A stretch of DNA of 64,000 nt, taken from NCBI GenBank assembly GCA_036768485.1, contig JAVLUZ010000340.1, positions 2,973,886 through 3,037,885 on the forward strand. Direction: 5' to 3'. Position numbers and translations under genes: made by a program. This stretch comes from Mermis nigrescens. Its lineage: Eukaryota > Nematoda > Enoplea > Mermithida > Mermithidae. The notes under the pieces were generated by a model, which did no database searches, had not been told where the DNA came from, and saw only the letters and a program-made list of their open reading frames with translations. Shown here one piece after another: positions 37,581 through 61,149 of this stretch; within the stretch, counting starts at the first letter, position 1; each line of letters begins with the position of its first letter.

Positions 37581-39405
<1,825 letters not shown>

Positions 39406-43883: not shown

Positions 43884-43889
43884 CTTATA
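43884..43889. other. Left target-site duplication of the Polinton
   Basis: CTTATA precedes the AGTAGTATAGCC terminus and is repeated exactly at 53604-53609. A 6-bp duplication is diagnostic of Polinton integrases. Confidence 0.9.
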
Positions 43890-44263
43890 AGTAGTATAGC
43901 CTGCGACCCTGGGGGGCAGTTCCGGAACTATATAGTTCTGGAACTAGGTTCGGGAACTTTTTTCCTGTGTTATAGTATAAGCAAACGTGGTAGGCAGCTG
44001 AAAAACGGGGGTTAAAACGTGCGCCCTGGCTTTGACAATGCGCGCCCTGAGGGGGTTCCTGTGTTATAATATAGGCGGGGGTGAAGGGGTGCGCCCTGAG
44101 TGCGCCCTGGGTATTTTGCGGAAAAATAGTTGTTCCTGGGGGATGGGGTATTTCCGGAACTTGGATAGTGGGGGCGGTAGGGTGCCCGTAAGCTTAAGGG
44201 GAGCAGTCCCTGGGGGAGGGGTAGTTTGGGAATCCTGTGAGGGTTGAATTCGGGAACTTGAAC
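43890..44263. repeat. Left terminal inverted repeat of the Polinton
   Basis: Pairs with the right terminus in the order GTAGTATAGCCTGCGACCCT, TTCGGGAACTTTTTTCCTGT, GTGCGCCCTGGCT, GGGGGTTCC...TGTTATAATATAGGCGGG, then GTGCGCCCTGAGTGCGCCCT. Similarity is strong to about 44160 and weaker inside. A small palindrome around TATATA (GGAACTATATAGTTC, near 43927) lies just inside the end. The sequence is markedly richer in G than the surrounding genome. Confidence 0.88.
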
Positions 44264-44610
44264 ACCCTCATAATGAGTCATAGTGTAAAGTAATTTTTTC
44301 TTGTTTTTTAGGAAGAAGAGCCGAAAGGAAAAGAAGAAAGGTGAGTACCTATCTGCCGGTCGGCCACCTTGACGTTGGTGAGTAGGCTTATAAAACCAAG
44401 AGCCCACCATTTCTCTTTTGCATATTTACGCCAGGTTGTGTTACCCTAATATTCTTTACACCAGCCCAGACCGTCCTCCCCCCATCGCTTCAAACTTTGC
44501 ATCATGGGTACACCAGTGCACCCATGACCCCGGCCAGCACGGCGGGGACGTGTTGAAGCATCGCTGGCCATCTATTTTTTGTTTTTTTGTTTTTTACGCT
44601 ATATACAAAA
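44264..44610. other. Polinton left subterminal region, no gene
   Basis: A T-rich tract then GGAAGAAGAGCCGAAAGG, followed by a region with a GTACACCAGTGCACC palindrome near 44505. No convincing reading frame. Confidence 0.4.
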
Positions 44611-44991
44611 TTACAACAACATATTATCGATACACGAAATAATATGTTCAAGTTCATGTTCAATCATGTTGACATTTTCCCAAAGAGGCGCATGTTCGGG
44701 CTTCAGGCACTGGAACATGTGATGGTATAGGTACGGCTCACTGTAGTCCCAGGCGCGTTTTATAGCCAAGGCTAGGAACCAAAATCCGCGGACCTTTCGT
44801 TTGCCCGTAAAATTCCGAGCGATATTGTAAGCTCGGGCAGCTGCCTTCCATTGTTCTTTCCGATGATCGTTGGAGCGATTCCAAAAGTAAGAGGCCACAT
44901 GCGCCTAATCCTTGTTTCGGTAGGGCACTAAATTATACATAAAGGCTAGTTGAGTACAAAAATCAACGAAATTTTCTTCAGCAACGTGCAT
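44611..44991 (-). pseudogene. Polinton small gene of unknown function, in-frame stop
   Basis: From an ATG at 44991 the - strand reads MHVAEENFVDFCTQLAFMYN, then meets TAG at 44905-44907 (codon 29). It then continues in the same frame with VASYFWNRSNDHRKEQWKAA, ARNFTGKRKVRGFWFLALAI and a C-terminus rich in H, E and M ending at 44611. Total about 126 codons. The frame is open on both sides of one stop, which suggests a recent nonsense change. A minus-strand TATAAATA box lies at 45059-45066, 75 bases before the ATG. I recognise no family. It is transcribed divergently from the gene at 45185. Confidence 0.6.
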
Positions 44992-45058
44992 TTTTAAGCA
45001 ACCGACTAATCAGGACGCAAGTACAAAAACAACTGATGTGTTTTTCACTCTCTCGCCC

Positions 45059-45066
45059 TATTTATA
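45059..45066 (-). promoter_or_regulatory. TATAAATA box (minus strand) for the gene at 44991
   Basis: Exact TATAAATA on the - strand in the 193-bp divergent region between 44991 and 45185. The distance to the ATG is longer (75 bases) than for the other genes. Confidence 0.6.
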
Positions 45067-45145
45067 CTTTTTTCCGGAATAGGCGTTTAATGGAATATAT
45101 CAGCTCAAATTATGAATCATCAAATTTTACTTGTTTGCCTGAGTC

Positions 45146-45153
45146 TATAAATA
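45146..45153 (+). promoter_or_regulatory. TATAAATA box for the zinc-ribbon gene
   Basis: TATAAATA within GTCTATAAATACTAAT, 39 bases before the ATG at 45185. The same longer context recurs at 48606 (with A in place of the first G) and 49960. Confidence 0.75.
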
Positions 45154-45184
45154 CTAATATTTTGTTACTTAAAAAACAATAAAA

Positions 45185-45526
45185 ATGGAGGAGATACAGG
45201 AAATCAAAAAGCGTTCATTCGTGGACACGGAAAGGAAACCGTATGGGAGGTCAATAAAGCCGCCCATTGAGATATGTGGTCGTAATATGGAGAGGCCCAT
45301 GTACCCTTTGATGATTCAACTTTGTTATTCTTGCCAAAAAGCATCGTGTGAACGAGAATTTTTCGAAACAAACGGGGGTCGATGGTACATTAATATTCAG
45401 ATGTGCCCTAGATGTGGGGAATATAATAGAGCAGCGCAGGAGACTGGAACTAAAGTGCTCAAACGGTATGCAGCAGAAGCAGCCGAAGAACTAAAAGCTG
45501 AAATTGCTCAAGAAAAAAGTCTATAA
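45185..45526 (+). CDS. Polinton small protein with zinc-ribbon-like CxxC pair
   Basis: A 113-residue protein, complete. It contains C47-x2-C50 (LCYSC) and C74-x2-C77 (MCPRC), with an extra cysteine at 55, spaced like a small zinc ribbon. The C-terminal 35 residues are alanine/glutamate-rich and probably helical. I do not recognise a family. Zinc ribbons of this size occur in transcription factors and in nucleic-acid-binding viral proteins, so a role in the element's transcription is possible but is only inference. The stop codon TAA lies inside the next gene's TATAAATA box (45522-45529), so the two are tightly packed. Confidence 0.75.
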   Translation: MEEIQEIKKRSFVDTERKPYGRSIKPPIEICGRNMERPMYPLMIQLCYSCQKASCEREFFETNGGRWYINIQMCPRCGEYNRAAQETGTKVLKRYAAEAAEELKAEIAQEKSL

Positions 45527-45529
45527 ATA
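45522..45529 (+). promoter_or_regulatory. TATAAATA box overlapping a stop codon
   Basis: AGTCTATAAATATG: the TAA of the upstream gene (45524-45526) is part of the box. It lies 46 bases before the ATG at 45568. Confidence 0.75.
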
Positions 45530-45567
45530 TGAACCCACTAGCGTAATTTCAATAATCTCTTAAAAAC

Positions 45568-45895
45568 ATGGCTTCCCCCGGAGAGCTTACCTACCAGCAA
45601 TTTATCCTTAAGCTTGTTGAAAAAGCCTGTAAACGGTTTGTGACGAATCGTGATGTTCATAGTATAGGTGCGTTTTTTCTGGAGAATTGTTAATGATGAG
45701 TTTAAGGAGCAAAGAAAAGAAGAGCTCAAACGCGACGCGTTTTGGCAGTTTGCGTTGGACTTGAAAGATTGTATTCTGGAAAAGAAAATGGAACAGCTGT
45801 TCAGCCTATGGCAACAGTTCAATTCAAACGGGAAGAACCTGTTTGAAAATATGTACGATAATTGTATTTGGTACAACGTAAATTGTCTTATATAG
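45568..45895 (+). pseudogene. Polinton small gene, frameshifted in a T run
   Basis: An ATG at 45568 opens MASPGELTYQQFILKLVEKA and reads to a stop just after a run of six T (45673-45678). The +1 frame downstream carries a charged helical segment (VNDEFKEQRKEELKRDAFWQ) ending at 45895. The two parts look like one protein of about 109 residues disrupted near the T run, which could also be a sequencing or assembly error. Function unknown. The TATAAATA box is at 45522. Confidence 0.6.
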
Positions 45896-45904
45896 CTCTC
45901 CCAT

Positions 45905-45912
45905 TATAAATA
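45905..45912 (+). promoter_or_regulatory. TATAAATA box for the integrase gene
   Basis: Exact match 31 bases before the integrase ATG at 45936, in a 40-bp intergenic gap. Confidence 0.78.
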
Positions 45913-45935
45913 TTAAACTAGTTTTCTCGTAAAAA

Positions 45936-46979
45936 ATGGACAAAAAATTGAAAAAGTTGTATTACGATACTAAATCGGGGTACTCTGGTGTAAACCAGCT
46001 GTACCTCAGAGCCAAAAAAGTATTTCCGAAATCAAGAATAAAACAATGGTTAGAAAAGCAACCATCATATACTTTGCACAAACCTGCATTAAGAAAATAT
46101 TTGCGGAACAGGGTTTTAGTAAGCAGTATTGATGAACAGTGGCAAGCTGATCTGGTTGATCTCCAATCACTATCTCAGCATAATGATGGGTACAAGTATT
46201 TATTGAACTGTATAGACATTTTCTCAAAATACTCATGGTCTATACCCTTAAAAAGCAAATTTTCTAATGATATTGTTGAAGCTTTCCAGAAAATCTTTAA
46301 AGATCGAAAACCGTATAAATTACAGACTGATGCAGGTAAAGAATTCGTGAACAAAGAGTTTCAGAAATTTTTAAAATCTGAATCTGTTGACTTTTTTGTT
46401 ACTAAAAGCGAACTGAAAGCATCGGTAGTAGAACGATTTAATCGCACATTAAAAGAGAAAATGTGGCGGTACTTAACTAAAAAGAATACGTACAGGTACA
46501 TTGACGTCTTAGACAATCTCATGCATAATTATAATCATTCTATGCATAGAACTATAGGTACATTTCCAGCAAACGTTACGCCAAAAAACGAGCAAGAAAT
46601 TTTAAATAAAGCCTTTCGCATTACAAAAAAAGATGCAGTATTTAAGTTCAATGTTGGCGATAAGATACGTCTAAGTAAAGTTAAGCGCACTTTTGAAAAA
46701 GGATACTGGCCCAATTGGACTGAAGAATTTTATATCGTTAAAGAGAGATACGCTAGAACACCACCAGTGTATAGTTTAGAAGACCAAATGGGTGAAAAAT
46801 TAGAAGGTATTTTCTATGAACCAGAACTGCAAAAAATTGACGTTTCAACTGAAGATTTATTCATTGTCAAAAAAATTCTAAAAACTCGAAAACGCGGCAA
46901 CAAAACTGATTATTTTGTTCGATGGAGAGGTTACCCGCCCAAATTTGATTCTTGGGTCCCTGATCTGATAAACGTATAA
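45936..46979 (+). CDS. Polinton retrovirus-like integrase with chromodomain
   Basis: A 347-residue DDE integrase, full length and open. An N-terminal helical zinc-binding-like region is followed by the catalytic core: D72 in WQADLVDLQ, D132 in LQTDAGKEF and E166 in ASVVERFNR. The D132-E166 gap is 33 residues, slightly shorter than the D-35-E of most integrases. The C-terminal chromodomain (about 308-345, FIVKKILKTRKRGNKTDYFV then RWRGYPPKFDSWVP) may target chromatin. The enzyme would join the AG-ended termini to 6-bp-staggered target sites, which agrees with the observed duplication. The start is the first ATG after the TATAAATA box. It reads toward the TBP gene, which is convergent. Confidence 0.95.
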   Translation: MDKKLKKLYYDTKSGYSGVNQLYLRAKKVFPKSRIKQWLEKQPSYTLHKPALRKYLRNRVLVSSIDEQWQADLVDLQSLSQHNDGYKYLLNCIDIFSKYSWSIPLKSKFSNDIVEAFQKIFKDRKPYKLQTDAGKEFVNKEFQKFLKSESVDFFVTKSELKASVVERFNRTLKEKMWRYLTKKNTYRYIDVLDNLMHNYNHSMHRTIGTFPANVTPKNEQEILNKAFRITKKDAVFKFNVGDKIRLSKVKRTFEKGYWPNWTEEFYIVKERYARTPPVYSLEDQMGEKLEGIFYEPELQKIDVSTEDLFIVKKILKTRKRGNKTDYFVRWRGYPPKFDSWVPDLINV

Positions 46980-47434
46980 ATGGTAATTTTGAATCTGATT
47001 TTGAAACAGGAAAAATGGAGGCTGGTCATTGTTTCTTCAAGCAAATTGCAAAATGTCTACTTTTCTGACACGCTATTTTAGTCTTTTCAAGCTTTCATTA
47101 GGAAATGCTTAGAAAAAGGCGACGTGTGCACCCTGTCCAAGTTATGCCAGTATTTAAGCCCCAAGGCTGAATTTTATTCTGCTAATCTTTATGCAAAAAG
47201 CTTTATTATGATCACATTTCTTCATCTAAAAAGCGCAAATTTTTTGTAAAGTTTGGAAAATTTCTTGCAAAGTTTTGGAAAATTTTTGTAAAGTTTGAAA
47301 AATTTCTTGCAGAGTTTGGAATCAATTTTATATGCTTAAGGATAGCAAATTTGTAGACATTAGAAAATTTATTGTAAAGTTTGAAAAATTTCTTGCTGGA
47401 ATTGAAAAATTTTTGCAATGAATGAAACTTTAGT
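46980..47434. other. Convergent spacer with 21-bp-type repeats
   Basis: The 3' ends of the integrase and TBP genes face each other here. From about 47237 to 47420 the sequence is an irregular array of TTGTAAAGTTTGGAAAATTT units. Such arrays could separate convergent transcripts, but no function is known. Confidence 0.55.
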
Positions 47435-47950
47435 TCATTCAATTTGGCATTGCTCAAGCATTGATTCAACTATTTTATGTGCTATATGCAATTCATGTTC
47501 TCTTTTTGCACCAGTGAGAATCATTTTTCCGCTTGTAAAGAGTAAAAACGTTACATTTCTGAATTTATATATTAAGCCAGGAAAGAGTTCTACTTCATAC
47601 ATGCATTTTCTTTTAACCAACTCATAAAATTTGCAAAGATTTATGCGAAATCCTAAATCAGCAGAGCCTACAAACAGCTGAGGCTGTATTTTTAGGTAAC
47701 AGGCTTGTGCATTTATTAGCTCTATAAAATGTTTTATTGCATTTTCGCCATCTTTAACTTTTTTAGCTCCTACGCATACTATTTTACCTGACTTGAATAT
47801 CAATAATGTAGCATGAGGTGGTCGATATATGATACCTGGAAATTTCTGAGGGTTATATTGTGCAGTATTTGGTAATTTTGCATATATCTCATCTAGATCA
47901 AGTGTGTCTTTAAGTGCTGCAGTAAGCACTATGTTCTGAATAGTAACCAT
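47435..47950 (-). CDS. TATA-binding protein (TBP) homologue encoded by the Polinton
   Basis: A complete 171-residue protein consisting of only the saddle-shaped TBP core, with no N-terminal extension. Two direct repeats are visible. Repeat 1 has IQNIVLTAALKDTLDLDEIY and AQYNPQKFPGIIYRP, then LLIFKSGKIVCVGAK. Repeat 2 has LFVGSADLGFRINL, then ELFPGLIY and LLFTSGKMILTGAK. All four phenylalanines that kink TATA DNA in known TBPs have counterparts: F37 and F52, F123 and F138. The DNA-contacting asparagine of repeat 1 is kept (N6); its repeat-2 partner is not (around 91-92). The rest is strongly diverged from host TBPs. It lies on the opposite strand between the integrase and ATPase genes, inside the element's inverted termini, and shares a 44-bp divergent promoter region with the ATPase. 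It probably recognises the element's own TATAAATA boxes. Confidence 0.9.
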   Translation of the reverse strand: MVTIQNIVLTAALKDTLDLDEIYAKLPNTAQYNPQKFPGIIYRPPHATLLIFKSGKIVCVGAKKVKDGENAIKHFIELINAQACYLKIQPQLFVGSADLGFRINLCKFYELVKRKCMYEVELFPGLIYKFRNVTFLLFTSGKMILTGAKREHELHIAHKIVESMLEQCQIE

Positions 47951-47954
47951 TTTC

Positions 47955-47962
47955 TATATATA
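47955..47962 (+). promoter_or_regulatory. TATATATA box for the packaging ATPase
   Basis: A TATA variant 40 bases before the ATPase ATG, in the same spacing window as the exact boxes. Part of the compact divergent promoter shared with TBP. Confidence 0.55.
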
Positions 47963-47982
47963 CCCACCTGTTTCTTAATACA

Positions 47983-47990
47983 TATTTATA
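47983..47990 (-). promoter_or_regulatory. TATAAATA box (minus strand) for the TBP gene
   Basis: Exact TATAAATA on the - strand, 40 bases before the TBP ATG (47950). The TBP gene therefore carries the motif its product would bind, so autoregulation is possible. Confidence 0.75.
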
Positions 47991-47994
47991 AACC

Positions 47995-48648
47995 ATGATT
48001 TTTCAACACCCTTTTACTTGCCTTGTTTCTGGGCCAACAAAGTCTGGCAAGACAACTTTTGTCAGGCAATTATTAGAAAACAGAGCACACTTGTTTGATA
48101 CAAAAATTAAAAAGATTTGGTGGTGCTTTGCCGAAAATCAGCCGCTGTATAGGGAAATGCAAGATGTTTCATTTATAGAAGGGCTTCCTGATTTTAGTTA
48201 TTTAAAAAAGTTTAGTCCAATGCCGCAACTTTTGATATTAGATGATCTAATGCAAGAGAGCAAGGGTAATGTTCAAATTGTACAGCTTTTCACAAGGAGA
48301 TGTCATCATTGGAATATTAGCATCATTCACATTGTTCAAAATGTGTTCTTTGAAGGCCTCAGAACTTCACGCATAAACTCTGATTATATAGTCTTATTTA
48401 AAAACCCTGCCGATCAATTACAGTCACAAATTTTGTCTCGCCAACTTTATCCAACAAATTCCAAATATTTCCTAGAAGCTTATTCTGATGCTACCTCTCA
48501 GCCACATGGCTATCTCTTGATAGATCTCACCCAAAATGCTAGAGATGAATTAAGACTTAAAACAAACATATTTAGCAAGCATCCGACTGTTTATGTAAAA
48601 AAATCTATAAATACTAATAATGACGGTGTAACCAATAAAAATGGGTAA
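47995..48648 (+). CDS. Polinton DNA-packaging ATPase (FtsK/HerA type)
   Basis: A 217-residue A32-like packaging ATPase, intact. Walker A is GPTKSGKTT (residues 13-21). Walker B is LLILDDLM (about 80-87). A glutamine-containing sensor region follows (IIHIVQNVFFEGLRTSRINS). It would pump element DNA into capsids. The C-terminal residues (KSINTNN) are encoded by the TATAAATACTAAT promoter of the next gene, and the last bases overlap the ATG at 48641. Confidence 0.95.
   Translation: MIFQHPFTCLVSGPTKSGKTTFVRQLLENRAHLFDTKIKKIWWCFAENQPLYREMQDVSFIEGLPDFSYLKKFSPMPQLLILDDLMQESKGNVQIVQLFTRRCHHWNISIIHIVQNVFFEGLRTSRINSDYIVLFKNPADQLQSQILSRQLYPTNSKYFLEAYSDATSQPHGYLLIDLTQNARDELRLKTNIFSKHPTVYVKKSINTNNDGVTNKNG
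48606..48613 (+). promoter_or_regulatory. TATAAATA box inside the ATPase coding end
   Basis: ATCTATAAATACTAAT, 35 bases before the ATG at 48641. It lies within the ATPase coding sequence and is read there as S-I-N-T-N. Confidence 0.75.
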
Positions 48649-48991
48649 AGAACGATTAAAACGCAATATTGTGTGCTTACACCTTCTGAGTCGAGCAAGA
48701 AAACCTCAAAGGGAGTCAATTATAAATACTGCCAGTAAAGATCAAATACTTTGTCTCTGTGACTGTGCAAGCAATTTTTTAAATGGTAACATTCCTTTTT
48801 CCGAAAAAGATATAAACAAACTTCGGAGATATCAAAATCAAATAAGACGTCTGGCAAATAATAAACAAATCAGTACAAAAGAAAGAAAAAATATTATAGT
48901 ACAGGACGGTGGTTTTCTTCCTCTTTTGTTAACTCCGATACTTACAATTGCAGGCAGTCTTTTAGCTGATGCAATAACAGGTAGAAAATGA
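48641..48991 (+). CDS. Polinton small protein with C-terminal hydrophobic segment
   Basis: A 116-residue protein, intact. A basic, helical N-terminal part (RLKRNIVCLHLLSRARKPQR; later INKLRRYQNQIRRLANNK) is followed by VQDGGFLPLLLTPILTIAGS and LLADAITGRK. The GGFLPLLLTPIL-type hydrophobic end is a recurring feature of small proteins next to the packaging ATPase in Polintons and adintoviruses. It may be a membrane-active or minor virion protein. The stop overlaps the next ATG (ATGA at 48988). Confidence 0.8.
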   Translation: MGKERLKRNIVCLHLLSRARKPQRESIINTASKDQILCLCDCASNFLNGNIPFSEKDINKLRRYQNQIRRLANNKQISTKERKNIIVQDGGFLPLLLTPILTIAGSLLADAITGRK

Positions 48992-49554
48992 AACATACTG
49001 AAAAAATGATTCTTATACCCGCTGAAATCAGCGAGCGGACTAAACCTATTGATGTTGTGCTAGAGTCCTTGGATAATGAGATGCAGAAAGTGTTGAACAG
49101 CAAAAATATACCATCTGATTTAAAACTTATAAAATATAATCAGATACTTGGCAAATTTAAGCGATTGCATGAACAGAAACAGGAACCGTACAAAGCCAAT
49201 ATAATTGAACATACAAAAGATGTACTTAGCAATGATGAAATACTAACTGCTATGCCAAAAAATCAAATTCCAAAGGCTAAAATGCTTCTCCACTATATTC
49301 GTACAAACCCTTTTATTGAAATAGAGTCTGATGGTGAGCTTGTTATAGATGGGCAAAAAATTGAAGGCTCAAACATTACAGATTTAATTAATGATTTAGC
49401 ACGTGAGCGTAAGAAAATAAGCAGACATCCTGGTACAAAGGAATTGCTGAAAGTGTTGAACCGCACAAATGTCCCACTAGCAAGTATTGGTAATAGACAA
49501 GGTAGGGAAATTTTTGCCGCAGGTGATGACTTTGACTGGGACGAAAGTCTATAA
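48988..49554 (+). CDS. Conserved Polinton coiled-coil protein
   Basis: A 188-residue protein, intact. It begins with KMILIPAEI, then an LDNEMQKVL helix and a KYNQILGKFKRL heptad-like segment. Later come a short module, AKMLLHYIRTNP followed by DGELVIDGQKIEGSNITDLI, and a charged C-terminus. This arrangement recurs in Polintons between the ATPase and capsid genes; its function is unknown. No TATAAATA box precedes it, so it is probably read from the same message as 48641. Its own stop (TAA) lies inside the next gene's box at 49550. Confidence 0.8.
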   Translation: MKHTEKMILIPAEISERTKPIDVVLESLDNEMQKVLNSKNIPSDLKLIKYNQILGKFKRLHEQKQEPYKANIIEHTKDVLSNDEILTAMPKNQIPKAKMLLHYIRTNPFIEIESDGELVIDGQKIEGSNITDLINDLARERKKISRHPGTKELLKVLNRTNVPLASIGNRQGREIFAAGDDFDWDESL

Positions 49555-49557
49555 ATA
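49550..49557 (+). promoter_or_regulatory. TATAAATA box overlapping a stop codon
   Basis: AGTCTATAAATACC: the TAA stop of the coiled-coil gene (49552-49554) forms part of the box, 45 bases before the ATG at 49595. Same arrangement as at 45522. Confidence 0.78.
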
Positions 49558-49594
49558 CCTTGTGTGTTTCAATTTTTGTGAAATAATCACAAAA

Positions 49595-50035
49595 ATGCAT
49601 GTTCAATTTACTCCCGACAATTACAACATTTGGCTGGAATATTATACAGGGCAGGCTGCCCAAACTGGTTATGGATTGGATGGGTTTAAAGGCATCCCAT
49701 ACCAGCGGGGCGTTGGTCTTGGCAACTTTTTCCGCTCCCTATTCAGAATGGCCATCCCTGTTCTGCAATCAATTGGTAAGCAAGTTGGAAAGCATGCTTT
49801 AGTTGCAGGTTCAAATATAGCATCCGATTTGGCCCAGGGAAAACCTCTTTTTGAGTCTACTAAAAAGCATTCAAAGCGAGAAGCTGCCCAACTTTTTGAT
49901 GAAGCCTCTCATGCCCTAGAACATCAGCAAGGAGAGGGTCTTGGTAGTCGCCCAAAGTCTATAAATACTAATGCACTTGATGCGTTTTCTAAAAAACATG
50001 GCTCTCATAGACGTAAAATCTATTCCGAGTACTAA
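49595..50035 (+). CDS. Polinton pX-like virion core protein
   Basis: A 146-residue protein, intact. The central segment, GVGLGNFFRSLFRMAIPVLQ then SIGKQVGKHALVAGSNIASD, is the amphipathic GLGNFFR-type stretch resembling adenovirus core peptide pX/mu and its adintovirus counterparts. An N-terminal tyrosine-rich region (NYNIWLEYYTGQ) and a basic C-terminus flank it. It likely condenses DNA or acts on membranes. Start at ATG 49595, not an upstream frame. Its 3' end encodes KSINTN over the capsid gene's TATAAATA box and overlaps the capsid ATG by 38 bases. Confidence 0.82.
   Translation: MHVQFTPDNYNIWLEYYTGQAAQTGYGLDGFKGIPYQRGVGLGNFFRSLFRMAIPVLQSIGKQVGKHALVAGSNIASDLAQGKPLFESTKKHSKREAAQLFDEASHALEHQQGEGLGSRPKSINTNALDAFSKKHGSHRRKIYSEY
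49960..49967 (+). promoter_or_regulatory. TATAAATA box for the major capsid gene
   Basis: GTCTATAAATACTAAT, 38 bases before the capsid ATG at 49998. It lies within the pX-like coding frame and is read as S-I-N-T-N. Confidence 0.78.
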
Positions 50036-51291
50036 AACTGAGTTAGACCTTTTCACGGTCCCTCCTACCCAAGTGGTAGTAAAGCGCGGCTTTTGGCATG
50101 AAATACAACCAACGCATCCCATAACTAATGAGGGACCATATGAATTTAGAATACCTCCCGATCCTCATTATATTCAGCTGAACAAAAATTACATTTATAT
50201 GCTACTAAGAATTAAAAAACCAACAGTTGCTGCAGGATCAGTAGTACCTGACTATGCACCTATCAATCTTATTGGTAAAACTTTTTTCAAGCAAGTAAAA
50301 TGTTTTCTAGGAGGCCGTTTAGTTTTTGACAGCTCCGATAAATATGCATATAGATCTTATTTTGAAACTGAATTAAATTATGGATTTGATGCAAAGCATT
50401 CACACTTACAGGCAGCATTATATTTTCATGATGGCGGCATTAATGTTGACACAAAAGATAGTGAATCATTCAAAAAGCGAGCTGCTATGTTTAAAGATGA
50501 AAATTTTGTAGAAGTTGCGGCTCCACTGCATATTGATATGTTCTTGCAAGATAGGTATTTAGTCAATTTTACCGATTTTCTGCTTAGAATTACACAGAAA
50601 TAGTAATGCATTTGCTTTGCAGTGTTTTGAAGATGTTAACTTAGATTTGAAAGTCTCTCAAATGAAATTTTTTATTCGAAAAGTTGAGGTTTTGGACACA
50701 GTAAATTTAGCTCTAGAGCAAACAATGCTTTCATACACAGCCAAATATCCTATAAGGCGCGTAGCTATCACTAACTTGCATATATCAAACCCTGCTAGGG
50801 AAACGCCAAATTATACATTGTTCACTGGTCAGCTACCTAGACGTATTGTATTTGCTTGTGTTGAAGGCAGTGCTTATCGAGGCAATCTAGCAAAATCGCC
50901 TTTCAACTTCAAACCTTTCAGCATATATGATGCAAAAGTAACGTGTGGGGGTATAACCTACCCTGCTTACCCACTTGGCATTGCATTCAAACATGATAGG
51001 TACTTGCAAGCCTATAATCAAATGTATGATGCACTCGATATAGGCCGTGAAGGTAATTTCATTAGCAGAGATGAGTTTAAGACAAGTCACTGCTTTTTTG
51101 TATTCGACTTGACACCTGATGCAGATGATGGGGGGCATTGGGATCTAGCACATGAAGGAACAACAAGCATAACTGTAAGGTTTGCTGATAATTTGCCTGA
51201 TTCTGGCATAGAAATCATTATATATGCTGAATTTGATAATTTAATAATGATTGATAAAAATCGAAACACATTTCATGACTATAGTGCGTAA
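49998..51291 (+). pseudogene. Polinton major capsid protein (double jelly-roll), frameshifted
   Basis: The major capsid (hexon-like) protein of Polintons. The first frame, from ATG 49998 to 50603, has TELDLFTVPPTQVVV, EFRIPPDPHYIQLNKNYIYM and YAYRSYFETELNYGFDAKHS. The second frame, from about 50605 to 51291, has YPIRRVAITNLHISN, LFTGQLPRRIVFACVEGSAY, GREGNFISRDEF and YAEFDNLIMIDKNRNTFHDY. The frames must be offset by one base near 50598-50604, in an A-rich stretch, so the gene is broken at about residue 200 (or the assembly has an error there). Full length would be about 430 residues, close to the family. The ATG was chosen over an upstream one because it follows the box at the usual distance. 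Confidence 0.9.
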
Positions 51292-51293
51292 AC

Positions 51294-51704
51294 ATGAATA
51301 CTATGGAAGTATTTAAAATTCTTGAACGTAATATCAAAATGGATATGTTTTTGGGCGTTTTTCCATTAGACCGCTTACCACCTATAAAAAACTATCCTGC
51401 AGCTATAGTGGTTAATTTGGATGCTAGCAATGAGCCTGGTTCACACTGGCTTGCTTTGTATTTTGTAAGCAAGAAACGCTGTGACTATTTTGATAGCTAT
51501 GGCTTAGAGCCACCTGTGCAATTGAAGCATTATATTTCTGATAATGCGCTTTCATTTACATACAATAATGTCCAAACACAAGGGCTTTTTTCCATTAGTT
51601 GTGGACATATGTGCATCTACTTCCTCTTATGCAGGAGTAATGATATTCCCTTCAAAAATATTGTTCTATCTATGCTGAGCGAAAAAAATTTATACATACT
51701 TTGA
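51294..51704 (+). CDS. Polinton maturation protease (adenain-like)
   Basis: A 136-residue cysteine protease of the adenain/Ulp1 (C5/C48) fold, intact. It contains GSHWLALYF (catalytic histidine), CDYFDSYG (acidic residue) and QTQGLFSISCGHMCIYFLLC with the catalytic glutamine and the cysteine in SCGHMC. It would cleave capsid precursors during maturation. The ATG is 2 bases after the capsid stop and no clear TATAAATA box precedes it, so it is probably translated from a capsid transcript or from a weak promoter. Confidence 0.92.
   Translation: MNTMEVFKILERNIKMDMFLGVFPLDRLPPIKNYPAAIVVNLDASNEPGSHWLALYFVSKKRCDYFDSYGLEPPVQLKHYISDNALSFTYNNVQTQGLFSISCGHMCIYFLLCRSNDIPFKNIVLSMLSEKNLYIL
51691..51698 (+). 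promoter_or_regulatory. Variant box TATACATA for the minor capsid gene
   Basis: A one-base variant, 32 bases before the ATG at 51723. It sits in the same spacing window, but it is less certain than the exact boxes. Confidence 0.45.
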
Positions 51705-51722
51705 TAAGCTTAAATTATAAAA

Positions 51723-52500
51723 ATGGATACTAAACAATTCTATTTAACGCTTCCGAGCAATTCACAGGAAGCCAATACTGCGGCTACATTTGTAACTGGC
51801 CTGCCAAGGCAAATTATATTATCTGGCGATATGGGAAGTTGGTTTAGCTGAGATAATTTATGCTAATACATGGCACAATGTTGCTGAGGATCAGAATATG
51901 ATACAATTTTATGATTTTAAAAATAATGTACGAGTAAAAATGCTTATTCCTAGAGCTAGATACCAAAATATACACGATCTTATTAAAACAATCAGTGAGG
52001 GAATGAAAATGGTTAGTCAAAATGAAAAATTTGAATATACTGAGTACCTGACTTTCAAGTATCATGAAAATAAGAAATTTTGTCATATAGTAATTAACAC
52101 TGCATACATTTAAGGCTTAAAGCTAACGAATCATTTGATGTATATGTTAGGCTTTTTAGATAGTCAGCTTAAAAATGTAAATTATACTCTTGCACAAGAA
52201 GTGACCATAGCTGCCCATCACTCTCCTGACATGCTAGGCGGAATGCACAATTTTTACGTTTATTGCGATATAATTGAGCCTCAAATTGTTGGAAACGTTT
52301 TTGCGCAACTTTTGCAGGTTGTAAACATTAAAGGAAAATACATGGATATTGTAAACCATGCATATATTAGCCCACACTATATACCCGTGCTGAAGAAATC
52401 ATTTAACACAATTGAAATAAATATCAAAACGGATCAAAATCAGCCCGTACCTTTTGAATTCGGCAAAACTATTGTAAAATTGCATTTTAGACACCAATAG
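51723..52500 (+). pseudogene. Polinton minor capsid (penton) protein, frameshift and stop
   Basis: The penton, or minor capsid, single jelly-roll protein. The first frame gives QFYLTLPSNSQEAN and runs to about 51830. A one-base shift moves to a frame with WEVGLAEIIYANTWHNV (the most recognisable penton motif) and VRVKMLIPRARYQNIHDLIK. That frame is stopped at TAA 52111-52113 and continues with YMLGFLDSQ, then MHNFYVYCDIIEPQIVGNVF and VPFEFGKTIVKLHFR, ending at 52500. About 259 codons in total. Two disabling changes in a short gene support real decay, not a single sequencing error. Confidence 0.88.
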
Positions 52501-52502
52501 AC

Positions 52503-52510
52503 TATAAATA
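52503..52510 (+). promoter_or_regulatory. TATAAATA box upstream of the DNA polymerase remnant
   Basis: Exact box 3 bases after the minor capsid stop (TAGACTATAAATA). The gene it would have served, PolB, is reduced to a fragment. Confidence 0.6.
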
Positions 52511-52636
52511 AAACCTATGTAGGTTACATATAATACAAAAATTATTTTCTTGTTGGTGCTCTTACATTCCACATATGGGGTTGATCCATGTATATGAAAA
52601 TGAGTTATGGTAATTTGCCATAATTTAGCAGACTAA

Positions 52637-52813
52637 AGTAGCACGTCACACTCTGCAAAAATACAAAAAGTTCTAGTGCCCGACTACCAAATAAAAGAAT
52701 ATTATAATAATATTTTGTTTTTTCAAGGACCTGTGGCTGATAAGGTGCTTGATTTACATGCTGCTAATAATCATCATTATGATCTGATTACAAAAATGCC
52801 TCAAGTGCAGTAA
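52637..52813 (+). pseudogene. Remnant of the Polinton protein-primed DNA polymerase B
   Basis: An open stretch reads KIQKVLVPDYQIKEYYNNIL, then VADKVLDLHAANNHHYDLIT and KMP, then stops. The NNHHYDLITKMP string resembles the N-proximal NxHYDVITSMP motif found in Polinton PolB proteins before the exonuclease domain. Nothing else of the roughly 1000-residue polymerase is present. A short unassigned frame (FGGACDPRKSSHSMLMLKEQ, about 52833-52904) follows and may be the far end of the deleted gene or unrelated. Loss of the polymerase accounts for the small element. Confidence 0.55.
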
Positions 52814-52911
52814 GTTTTTCCTCCAAAAACAGCGCTTTGGTGGTGCTTGTGACCCACGCAAATCCTCTCATTCTATGCTCATGCTTAAAGAGCAGCAAAA
52901 AATGTAACGTA

Positions 52912-53062
52912 CAGTGTAAAGAGATGTAAAGTCGTGTAAAGTGTAAAGTGGTGTAAAGTAGTGTAAAGTGTAAACTTGTGTAAAGTAGTGTAAAGTGTAA
53001 AGTGGTGTAAAGTAGTGTAAAGTGTAAACAAGTGTAAAGTGTAAAGTGGTGTAAAGTGGTTC
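52912..53062. repeat. GTGTAAAG tandem array inside the Polinton
   Basis: About fifteen imperfect copies of GTGTAAAGT arranged as AGTGTAAAGTGGTGTAAAGT and AGTGTAAACAAGTG variants. The array sits at the break that replaced the polymerase gene. The same GTGTAAA word fills the transposon at 33-37 kb. Translations across it are repeat artefacts. Confidence 0.9.
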
Positions 53063-53192
53063 ACCATCCCTTCTTATCCTATTCCTATCATAAGCCCACC
53101 TTATACTACCCTCCCTCGGCCACTCTTATCCTAAGTTTAAAGAGAAGGCACTAATGAACCCTTGTTGGTGAAGGCACTAATGAACCCTTGTT

Positions 53193-53603
53193 GGTGCCCC
53201 TCCCCTGGAACAACTTTTTGAAAGTTCCCGAACTACCCCCCAACCCTAGGGGCGACTTTTTGAAAGTTCCCGAACTACCCCCTTCCCCCAGGGATAACTT
53301 TCTTGAAAGTTCCGGAACTACCTTATCCCCCAGGGACAACTATTTTTTCGGCAAAATACCCAGGGCGCACTCAGGGCGCACTCAGGGCGCACCCCTCACC
53401 CCCGCCTATATTATAACACAGGGAACCCCCTCAGGGCGCACATTCTCAGAGCCAGGGCGCACATTTCAACCCCCATTTTCCAGCTACCACACACGTCCGC
53501 CTATGCTATAACACAGGAAAAAAGTTCCCGAACTTAGTTCCACCTATTTTATAACATGGGCTACGTTATAACGTTGCTCCCCAGGGTCGCAGGCTATACT
53601 ACT
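53193..53603. repeat. Right terminal inverted repeat of the Polinton
   Basis: Inverted counterpart of 43890-44263, ending GGCTATACTACT. It carries an extra copy of the GAACTTTC...CCCCAGGG block relative to the left end. Three CAGGGCGCACT units lie near 53360-53393. Confidence 0.88.
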
Positions 53604-53609
53604 CTTATA
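53604..53609. other. Right target-site duplication of the Polinton
   Basis: CTTATA, identical to 43884-43889. Confidence 0.9.
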
Positions 53610-59678: not shown

Positions 59679-59782
59679 TGTCTAGACAAATCGGCGGTAA
59701 TCGAGTGACCCATGTCAAATACAATCGAATTAAAGCATGATTTGTTTCCAATTTTCAGAATGCAATTTTAGGAAAGAATATT

Positions 59783-60048
<266 letters not shown>

Positions 60049-60049
60049 A

Positions 60050-61149
60050 TCTCAGTCTGCAATCTGCATATTAATGCTTAGAAAACACATCCTGCGAAAT
60101 TTGTTGGTATCCGCATTTTGAGACCCAACTTATTTTTTGTCAGGCTCTGTCGTATGTCAAGTACGCCATTGCGCACACGGAGGGGGAACTATGGGACACT
60201 GTTTGGTCGGGCAGCGCCTAAATTGGAGAAGTGTATTTTTTGAATTATTTTTAAAAGATGAAAATTCTGTAGTATAAAATTTTTTATGTCAAACAACGTC
60301 GTATGTTCAAATCGAAGAATATCAAAATAATGATCGTTTTGGCTCCAATAGTTGCAAAAAACACCTTTTTCTAACTTGTTCGTTTAGTTCGATGTAATAG
60401 CAATAAAAAACATCTCAGAGGCGAAAGATTCTTGCCACTCCAATCGGAAGGATCCACATAGTTTTTAGGGTACAAGATAGTCGATCGAGAAGTTGCCCAA
60501 TAATTAAAAATTAAAAGGCAAGTTTAATGAAAAAACTGAGAGGGTGACTAAGAAAACCTTTTTTCCAGTTTTTTCATAAGCATTCTCTTGGTTCCTAATT
60601 TTTCTACTACAAAATTGTATCTCTAAGGTTCCATGAACTGCCGAATATGTTTAAAATTCCTGACACGAATGTATACCGAGGCACAAACGTGCATTTACTT
60701 TGACAGATGTGAGATATTTTATCACAGGAATATATTAATAATGTGTAGCCGTCAGACTCGACTTATCTGAAGACTCTACGATTTTTCTACTAGATTTTGT
60801 CGCAATTCTGACCTACAATAAAATTATCCAAAATATTCACTGAGATCTTAACCTCCCGTCCGATTAGCGGATAACAAGCAAGGCAGGTTGAGCCCTAATT
60901 CCCCCAGTCGGAGTAGAGCACATTTAAGTCGCAATGCTATCTATCGAAATAATTATTCGAAAATAATGAAAACAGCTAAATCGATGATAATTGATGAAAC
61001 GTCCCACCACCACTGAATGTCTTCGAATGAGAATAACAAAGGCCAAAGAAACTAAGCTATAAAGCTTCGCTTCAGTTGAAGCAATCAAAAAGCCAGTAAA
61101 GAGGAAAGTTTAATCAGAAATCAACGTTGGTTCGGACTAAATATATGTA
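60050..61149. other. No feature recognised
   Basis: A+T-rich sequence with no convincing exon, RNA gene or repeat. Confidence 0.4.

Follow-up and report, generated by a model that had tools for sequence, protein, structure and literature searches.

The TBP gene and the Polinton that carries it

A 64,000-nucleotide stretch of the Mermis nigrescens genome (contig JAVLUZ010000340.1, positions 2,973,886–3,037,885; hereafter "the window") contains a Polinton element that encodes a TATA-binding protein (TBP). The TBP gene is an open reading frame (ORF) for 171 amino acids at positions 47435–47950. The original prediction for this DNA had proposed a complete two-repeat TBP here without naming the strand; the gene lies on the minus strand, and a profile search bears the proposal out, since PF00352 matches in two stretches with high significance (E = 5.4e-45; 151.6 bits against a cut-off of 22.9). 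Matches in the PDB comprise 35 distinct TBP sequences, the best being chain 1mp9_A (5.3e-32), which we take to be the Sulfolobus TBP, and ten NCBIfam TBP models match as well, each under its curated cut-off. A chance ORF is ruled out by the Pfam and PDB matches. The gene has no intron, and its product is predicted to be a plain two-repeat TBP that consists of the core only. In an alignment, the DNA-kinking phenylalanines of yeast TBP (F99, F116, F190, and F207) are matched by residues F37, F52, F123, and F138 of the window protein; the alignment agrees with the earlier statement that all four are kept.

The TBP gene lies between the integrase and packaging ATPase genes, as predicted and as a Pfam scan confirms. 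The surrounding element ends in AGTAGTATAG...CTATACTACT (AGTAGT...ACTACT) and is flanked on both sides by a 6-bp duplication, CTTATA. These termini had been called perfect. The word suits the outermost bases and also the duplication, but the inner inverted repeats are 87–97% complementary. The features of the element are as follows.

43884–43889, no strand: target-site duplication CTTATA, left copy
43890–53603, no strand: Polinton element with terminal inverted repeats, 9,714 bp
45185–45526, plus strand: 113-residue protein with cysteine pairs, kept in relatives (52–71%)
45936–46979, plus strand: integrase with rve core (PF00665, 2.3e-11) and chromodomain (PF00385, 2.4e-8)
47435–47950, minus strand: TBP gene, 171 residues, two TBP repeats (ORF, profile and PDB matches)
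47995–48648, plus strand: A32-like packaging ATPase (PF04665, 8e-5; 22.7 bits against a cut-off of 22.8)
48641–48991, plus strand: 116-residue ORF, kept in relatives
48988–49554, plus strand: 188-residue ORF, kept in relatives
49487–50035, plus strand: ORF kept in relatives, presumably pVI-like
49971–51291, plus strand: capsid-like gene, split over two frames (named by position; no family match)
51294–51704, plus strand: adenovirus-type protease (PF00770, 4.5e-4; 20.4 bits against a cut-off of 21.3)
52135–52500, plus strand: ORF kept in relatives, whose homologue precedes TBP in those clade B elements that were read
52658–52795, plus strand: remnant of PolB, approximately 46 codons (60.9% to an ORF of the related locus L044)
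53604–53609, no strand: target-site duplication CTTATA, right copy

Some of these assignments are weaker than others. The scores of the ATPase and the protease both fall slightly under the Pfam cut-offs, and the capsid-like gene, presumed from its position to encode a major capsid protein of the double-jelly-roll type, has no Pfam or PHROGs match and a single PDB match at chance level (E = 0.53). The element has no protein-primed PolB gene beyond the remnant, and the L044 ORF that this remnant matches shows a 28% alignment with L045 PolB. Its ends, integrase, and relatives mark the window copy as a Polinton, and the reduced PolB and broken capsid-like frame mark it as a defective one. The right end of the element, next to what is left of PolB, is filled with short tandem repeats and a GTGTAAAGT minisatellite (52901–53067 and 53144–53323). 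Elsewhere in the window, the long ORFs at 38142–38708 and 59755–60074 consist mostly of (AT)n and (AC)n microsatellites.

Recurrence, selection, and ancestry of the element TBPs

Searches of the 524-Mb genome with the window protein and with yeast TBP together revealed at least 298 TBP-like places besides the host gene, a lower bound because the best candidates of each query were scored. For the window protein, 138 of the best 150 of 2,138 candidates were free of stop codons, and the matches listed include 32 near-full-length copies that are 92–100% identical, the others ranging down to 72%. With yeast TBP, the best 150 of 1,743 candidates included 148 single-piece, non-host places at 31–44% identity, some of them partial or with stops among the matches listed, and a separate host TBP gene matched as two exons on contig C73. 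The two lists do not overlap anywhere within 1 kb. From part of the listed places we drew 55 distinct TBP proteins of usable length and sorted them by eye and by tree into families I–XI, which are our own labels; X and XI do not separate cleanly in a second tree. The window protein, a member of family I, is 33–41% identical to the other aligned families, as against 72–100% within the listed family I matches. With so many places, eleven families, and a separate host gene, the proposal that a Polinton encodes its own TBP is upheld. Some copies occur as opposed pairs: at locus L073, two family XI ORFs (G000:C818:75783–76298, plus strand, and 76659–77177, minus strand) are inverted with approximately 360 nt between them, and three further pairs, 2–6 kb apart, were seen on C724 and at C61:16435145/16440803 and C61:36478195/36482811.

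Residues important for TBP function were compared across 17 aligned element TBPs. Phenylalanines F99, F116, and F190 (yeast numbering) are kept in 17/17 and F207 in 16/17, and of the two glutamates that we assume face TFIIB, E186 is kept in all 17 and E188 in 16. N69 and N159, presumably the two central DNA-contact asparagines usual in TBPs, lie outside the Pfam definition of a TBP; they are kept in 17/17 and 13/17, respectively. The helix-2 lysines 138 and 145, which we take to lie on the side of TBP that meets TFIIA, NC2, and Mot1, are altered in several element families. Loop lengths differ too, and family I has two residues fewer in each stirrup than yeast TBP.

Ratios of nonsynonymous to synonymous substitution (dN/dS, by NG86) are low in most comparisons. 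In family I they lie at 0.098–0.181 in 20 of 21 pairs (with dS above 1 in 8 of the 21), and in family III at 0.144–0.252 in all six pairs. The values for families II, IV, V, and VIII are 0.13, 0.31–0.39 (three pairs), 0.25, and 0.22, respectively, and the pairs from X and XI give 0.07–0.14, values that are saturated (dS above 1 in 3/3). Near-neutral ratios were found for the closest family I pair (L001–L030, 0.72) and for the sole family VI pair (L054–L059, 0.97). The pattern fits a gene that would have been maintained by selection during multiplication of the elements, followed by drift after insertion. We infer that the TBP gene truly belongs to a Polinton lineage and has been retained there for a long time.

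In a tree under the LG+G4 model, the element TBPs form clade A (families I and VI–XI) and clade B (families II–V), with bootstrap values of 100 each, joined at 82. A site-mixture model retained clade B (100/100) beside the eukaryotic TBPs and gave clade A 89/68. The host TBP clusters with other eukaryotic TBPs in both trees; among 133 compared proteins, one from the animal Cichlidogyrus ranks after two others as its match. A single clade of all element TBPs was not rejected (p = 0.277), and placing the host TBP with clade A, with clade B, or with all element TBPs gave p values of 0.036, 0.063, and 0.061, respectively. On these comparisons the gene is not a recent capture from the host, and one or two old origins would both be compatible with the data; an old capture of host TBP is weakly disfavored for clade B.

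Outside this genome, three TBPs encoded by short contigs of other public data sets fall inside clade A: P0020 and P0023 (47–58% to families VII, IX, and X) and P0134 (57% to family X). To family X, the values of the three span 48–58%. Because these proteins group there, this kind of TBP is probably not confined to the present assembly. A single-sequence protein search returned 12 TBPs at no more than 46% identity, the best of them archaeal, and in an alignment search the named proteins among the best 120 of 2,775 were TBPs or hypothetical proteins of ordinary organisms. Queries with the TBP, the integrase, and a piece of the capsid-like protein found no relatives among the IMG/VR viral contigs.

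The genomic context of the gene was read in families I–VIII and X. In family I (the window and L041–L044), TBP is on the strand opposite to its neighbors and adjoins either the ATPase gene or, in L041 (4557–5609) and L042 (4389–5441), a second type of integrase gene that is placed between TBP and ATPase and is 32–33% identical to the window integrase. In families II (L090), III (L093), IV (L094), and V (L091), TBP follows the capsid-like block and the protease on the same strand; in these clade B elements it is the last gene, distant from the integrase. Many sister elements carry the same gene, and its position between integrase and ATPase is not kept in clade B. Integrase ends together with distant capsid-like, protease, and ATPase genes lie beside TBP in L088 (family X) and L089 (family VIII), and the cysteine-pair gene and an integrase fragment lie near it in L087 (family VI). 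A listed TBP was found within 25 kb of 21 of the 80 scored PolB loci, against 2.2 expected from uniform placement, and in 20 of these 21 pairs TBP lies on the same strand, 9.7–19.3 kb downstream of PolB; the other 59 loci have no TBP within 25 kb among the matches listed. The PolB of L090 was identified by DNA_pol_B_2 (3.8e-21). F-box-like ORFs also adjoin TBP in L089 (PF12937, 1.1e-8) and L092 (0.0012, under the cut-off), and two ORFs of L088 look similar.

TATA boxes before the element genes

Many element genes have a TATA box approximately 30–50 nt before the ATG, and the box comes in two spellings, TATAAATA and TATAWAAG. The boxes in the window element are as follows.

45146–45153, plus strand: TATAAATA, 39 nt before the 113-residue cysteine-pair ORF
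45905–45912, plus strand: TATAAATA, 31 nt before the integrase gene
47955–47962, plus strand: TATATATA, 40 nt before the ATPase ATG, in a divergent promoter region common to TBP; outside the two counted spellings
47983–47990, minus strand: TATAAATA, 40 nt before the TBP ATG
48606–48613, plus strand: TATAAATA, 35 nt before the 116-residue ORF, inside the end of the ATPase frame
49550–49557, plus strand: TATAAATA, 45 nt before a 146-residue ORF starting MHVQF
49960–49967, plus strand: TATAAATA before the capsid-like gene, within the last coding stretch of the ORF upstream (...KSINT...)

To compare elements, boxes were counted at −65 to −12 of gene starts, taken as the first ATGs of nonoverlapping ORFs of at least 90 residues, some of which are not true gene starts. 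The clade A set comprised eight elements (the window, L041–L044, and L087–L089) and the clade B set four (L090, L091, L093, and L094); L042, L087, L088, and L089 were counted over their element part only, and L092 was left out. In clade A, TATAAATA occurs at 26 of 61 starts and TATAWAAG at 0 of 61. In clade B, TATAWAAG occurs at 17 of 48 starts and TATAAATA at three, all three of which belong to the TBP gene itself. Random placement (2000 trials) gave a mean of 2.0 and a maximum of 10 for TATAAATA in clade A, and 1.5 and 7 for TATAWAAG in clade B; the median distances from box to ATG are 39.5 and 43 nt, respectively. A Fisher test of 26/0 versus 3/17 yields 6.5e-10, a value that is too strong since the elements are related; counted by family, TATAAATA is used in four (I, VI, VIII, and X) and TATAWAAG in four (II–V). 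Whole-element counts exceeded all 100 dinucleotide shuffles for six of the eight clade A elements and one of the four clade B elements. L092 has a (TA)n run at its TBP start and one box at −76 of the F-box start.

The difference also holds gene by gene, as homologues of the cysteine-pair ORF, the 116-residue ORF, the pVI-like ORF, and the capsid-like gene have boxes that are spelled differently in the two groups. The box of the capsid-like gene lies within coding DNA of the preceding gene and still differs, so that the encoded peptide reads KSINT in one group and KSIKE in the other. Genome-wide, the extended motif AGTCTATAAATACT was found at 878 places, against 8 for a backward control, and AGTCTATAWAAGAA at 224 against 22. 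The 54 kb of window flanking the element contain neither GTCTATAAATAC nor GTCTATAWAAG, and the bare octamers are present there 10 and 8 times. Proximity to TBP was assessed for the first 100 listed places of each motif, with family I set against all other listed TBPs: within 5 kb, AGTCTATAAATACT had 17 family I and no other TBPs and AGTCTATAWAAGAA had none and 31, and within 10 kb the numbers were 22 and 2 for AGTCTATAAATACT and 1 and 38 for AGTCTATAWAAGAA. The extended TATAAATA motif is a mark of family I. The octamer itself is also present in families VIII and X, where the flanks do not always match.

Other parts of the elements group differently. The family I capsid-like protein matches families II–V at 58–63% and families VIII and X at 26–30% in the pieces compared, and for the capsid-like and ATPase proteins together the values are approximately 50–63% versus 24–37%, with pieces of fewer than 40 residues left out. 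The end of the window integrase, by contrast, matches VIII and X at 65–69% and II–V at 53–59%. Since the capsid-like protein is nearer to II–V and the integrase end nearer to VIII and X, modules have been exchanged. Promoter spelling does not follow the capsid genes, and it follows TBP if clade A is right. It follows the integrase for the window type, yet L041 and L042 share the spelling of the window with a different integrase (37% over that end).

Proposed role of the element TBP

We consider it probable that the element-made TBP recognizes the TATA boxes of its own element and recruits host TFIIB and RNA polymerase II (Pol II). In this scheme, the element TBP would bind these boxes and bend the DNA, and the bound protein would recruit host TFIIB and Pol II, so that capsid, integrase, and other element genes would fire together. 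Because the helix-2 lysines and the family I stirrup loops are altered, element transcription would perhaps be free of host regulators of TBP. The host TBP could start the TBP gene itself through its off-code box, which is a guess; this box may represent a separate expression class. Having their own TBP and TATA boxes of a matching type, the elements may bring part of the transcription-start machinery along, as the data suggest. TFIIB and RNA polymerase subunits were absent from Pfam scans of 20 element proteins, no genome-wide search being made. The earlier idea of a promoter-recognition factor is supported as a correlation, through positioned TATA boxes that are spelled one way in one group of elements and another way in the other. 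The take-over of host Pol II or III proposed with it stays hypothetical, and nothing in the data points to Pol III: ARAGORN detected no tRNA gene either in the window or at ten loci, Rfam had no match in the window, and targeting of Pol III or tRNA genes was rejected on these grounds. Recruitment to genes of the element itself agrees with the data better than a take-over of a general kind does. More tentatively, Polintons resident in one host may run two or more self-contained promoter codes. In each of these, one type of TBP would pair with a spelling of its own (TATAAATA or TATAWAAG) before the genes that it serves and would use host TFIIB and Pol II and no host TBP, and the TBP gene, under its off-code box, would be switched on first; we hold this extension to be possible, if somewhat short of an even chance.

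Several observations weigh against recognition of the boxes by the element TBP. The match between promoter and TBP is a correlation among related elements, and neither spelling is found at 35 of 61 clade A and 28 of 48 clade B counted starts. Box counts in L087 and L089 (clade A) and in L091, L093, and L094 (clade B) are not above the highest shuffle, and 83 and 69 of the first 100 listed places of the two extended motifs have no TBP within 5 kb among the matches listed. The TBP gene's own box departs from the rule, being TATAAATA in families III–V, TATATAAG in II and IX, and TATAAAAG in one X member, and none of these boxes stands before the TBP gene of family VI. As to the protein, all four family I rows, that of the window among them, have L or M in place of N159. 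Placement of family I within clade A is strong under LG+G4 and not decisive under the site-mixture model (89/68), and grouping it with clade B was not rejected (p = 0.16). Finally, tblastn found no other window gene in L092, the family VII locus.

Other explanations have to be set beside this one. The element TBP might act mainly on the host, competing with host TBP or titrating TFIIB, and so lower host transcription or redirect Pol II, the boxes being strong Pol II promoters of the usual sort, open to host TBP as well. Conservation of the TFIIB-facing residues, the changed helix-2 lysines of several families, and the spellings TATATAAG and TATAAAAG, presumably canonical TATA boxes, would all be in keeping with such a role. 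If host TBP read every box, however, one would not expect spellings to sort with element and TBP group, nor four gene homologues (cysteine-pair, 116-residue, pVI-like, and capsid-like) to be spelled differently by group, and we regard a mainly host-directed role as unlikely. Slightly less credible is the view that spelling is a mere lineage marker, that host TBP reads both forms, and that the TBP gene does another job or only part of this one. Elements within a group are related and their copies not independent, the box of the TBP gene ignores the rule, and family I is not firmly in clade A, all as that view would have it. On the other hand, TATAAATA is common to families I, VIII, and X, yet the capsid-like and ATPase proteins of family I are nearer to those of II–V, and the box embedded in coding DNA before the capsid-like gene differs all the same (KSINT versus KSIKE).

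A function in integration or packaging, such as bending the ends or guiding the integrase to AT-rich or promoter sites, has a parallel in Ty3, whose integration is guided by TFIIIB. It would agree with the place of the window TBP between integrase and ATPase and with the target duplication CTTATA. We nevertheless judge it quite improbable, as the clade B TBP comes last, after the capsid-like block and distant from the integrase, no tRNA gene lies in the window or the ten loci, and the positioned TATA boxes would go unexplained. That a single element recently picked up a retrocopy of host TBP, an alternative named in the original prediction, can be given next to no credence: the intronless gene would suit it, but a single recent copy is refuted by at least 298 places, by eleven families with 72–100% identity within listed family I and 33–41% between the window protein and the others, by the separate two-exon host gene, and by both trees, in which host TBP sides with other eukaryotic TBPs. 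Recognition of the element's own boxes by the element TBP is the reading that we carry forward.

The window element and its relatives resemble known Polintons (Mavericks) in their ends, their 6-bp duplication, and a chromodomain integrase, and the relatives also in PolB; the putative A32-like ATPase, adenovirus-type protease, and capsid-like genes would extend the resemblance. Vertebrate Mavericks are described with (AGT)2//(ACT)2 ends and 6-bp duplications in PMC8097293; TBP is not included there, whereas the elements reported here carry one in eleven families, with group-specific spellings. Viruses with a TBP of their own are on record: one paper counts the TBP gene as conserved across Mimiviridae and their relatives (PMC3620924), and another names TBP, TFIIB, and RNA polymerase subunits in a megavirus (PMC11464507). 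The elements share with these DNA viruses an own TBP but, as far as the 20 scanned proteins go, lack the TFIIB and polymerase subunits that accompany it there. Mirusviruses have TBP in 59% of genomes, HK97-fold capsids, and RNA polymerase genes of their own, and a contiguous genome measures 431.5 kb (PMC10132985); the shared trait here belongs to a window element of 9.7 kb, with 9.7–19.3 kb between PolB and TBP in relatives. In green alga elements that are possible mirusvirus relatives, TATA-binding proteins are named sporadically (PMC10675990).

A common promoter motif before genes is also found in Mavirus-type elements (EMALEs), whose motif TCTA is read as matching the giant virus that supplies transcription (PMC8547959). 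TCTA occurs within TCTATAAATA as well, but here, unlike in EMALEs, the element encodes the TBP. Poxvirus VITF-3 and VETF have TBP-like subunits, TBP-fold promoter factors that are structurally remodeled, have minimal sequence conservation, and act with a viral RNA polymerase (PMC12917281); the element protein would likewise be a TBP-fold promoter factor but, by its sequence, a plain two-repeat one. A Polinton with a TBP was not found among the listed matches in the open-licence literature that pairs such elements with TBP or TATA terms, a scope that has subscription papers outside it, as well as PMC12085832 and PMC7786948, both of which contain Polinton and TBP words. The full texts of PMC11071296, PMC11071308, PMC11244446, PMC10120064, PMC10328495, PMC4642659, PMC8097293, and PMC4028283 do not mention TATA or TBP, and the matched text of PMC10558129 contains no Polinton TBP.

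The elements place a core transcription factor in approximately 10 kb of DNA, a trait that the cited papers report for far larger viruses. To our knowledge, little is known of how genes are switched on in Polintons or in other animal capsid-coding elements, and a TBP gene under selection, together with positioned TATA boxes of two spellings, offers a direct and testable answer for Polintons. The elements also provide a small natural system in which a TBP and its TATA box may have changed together.
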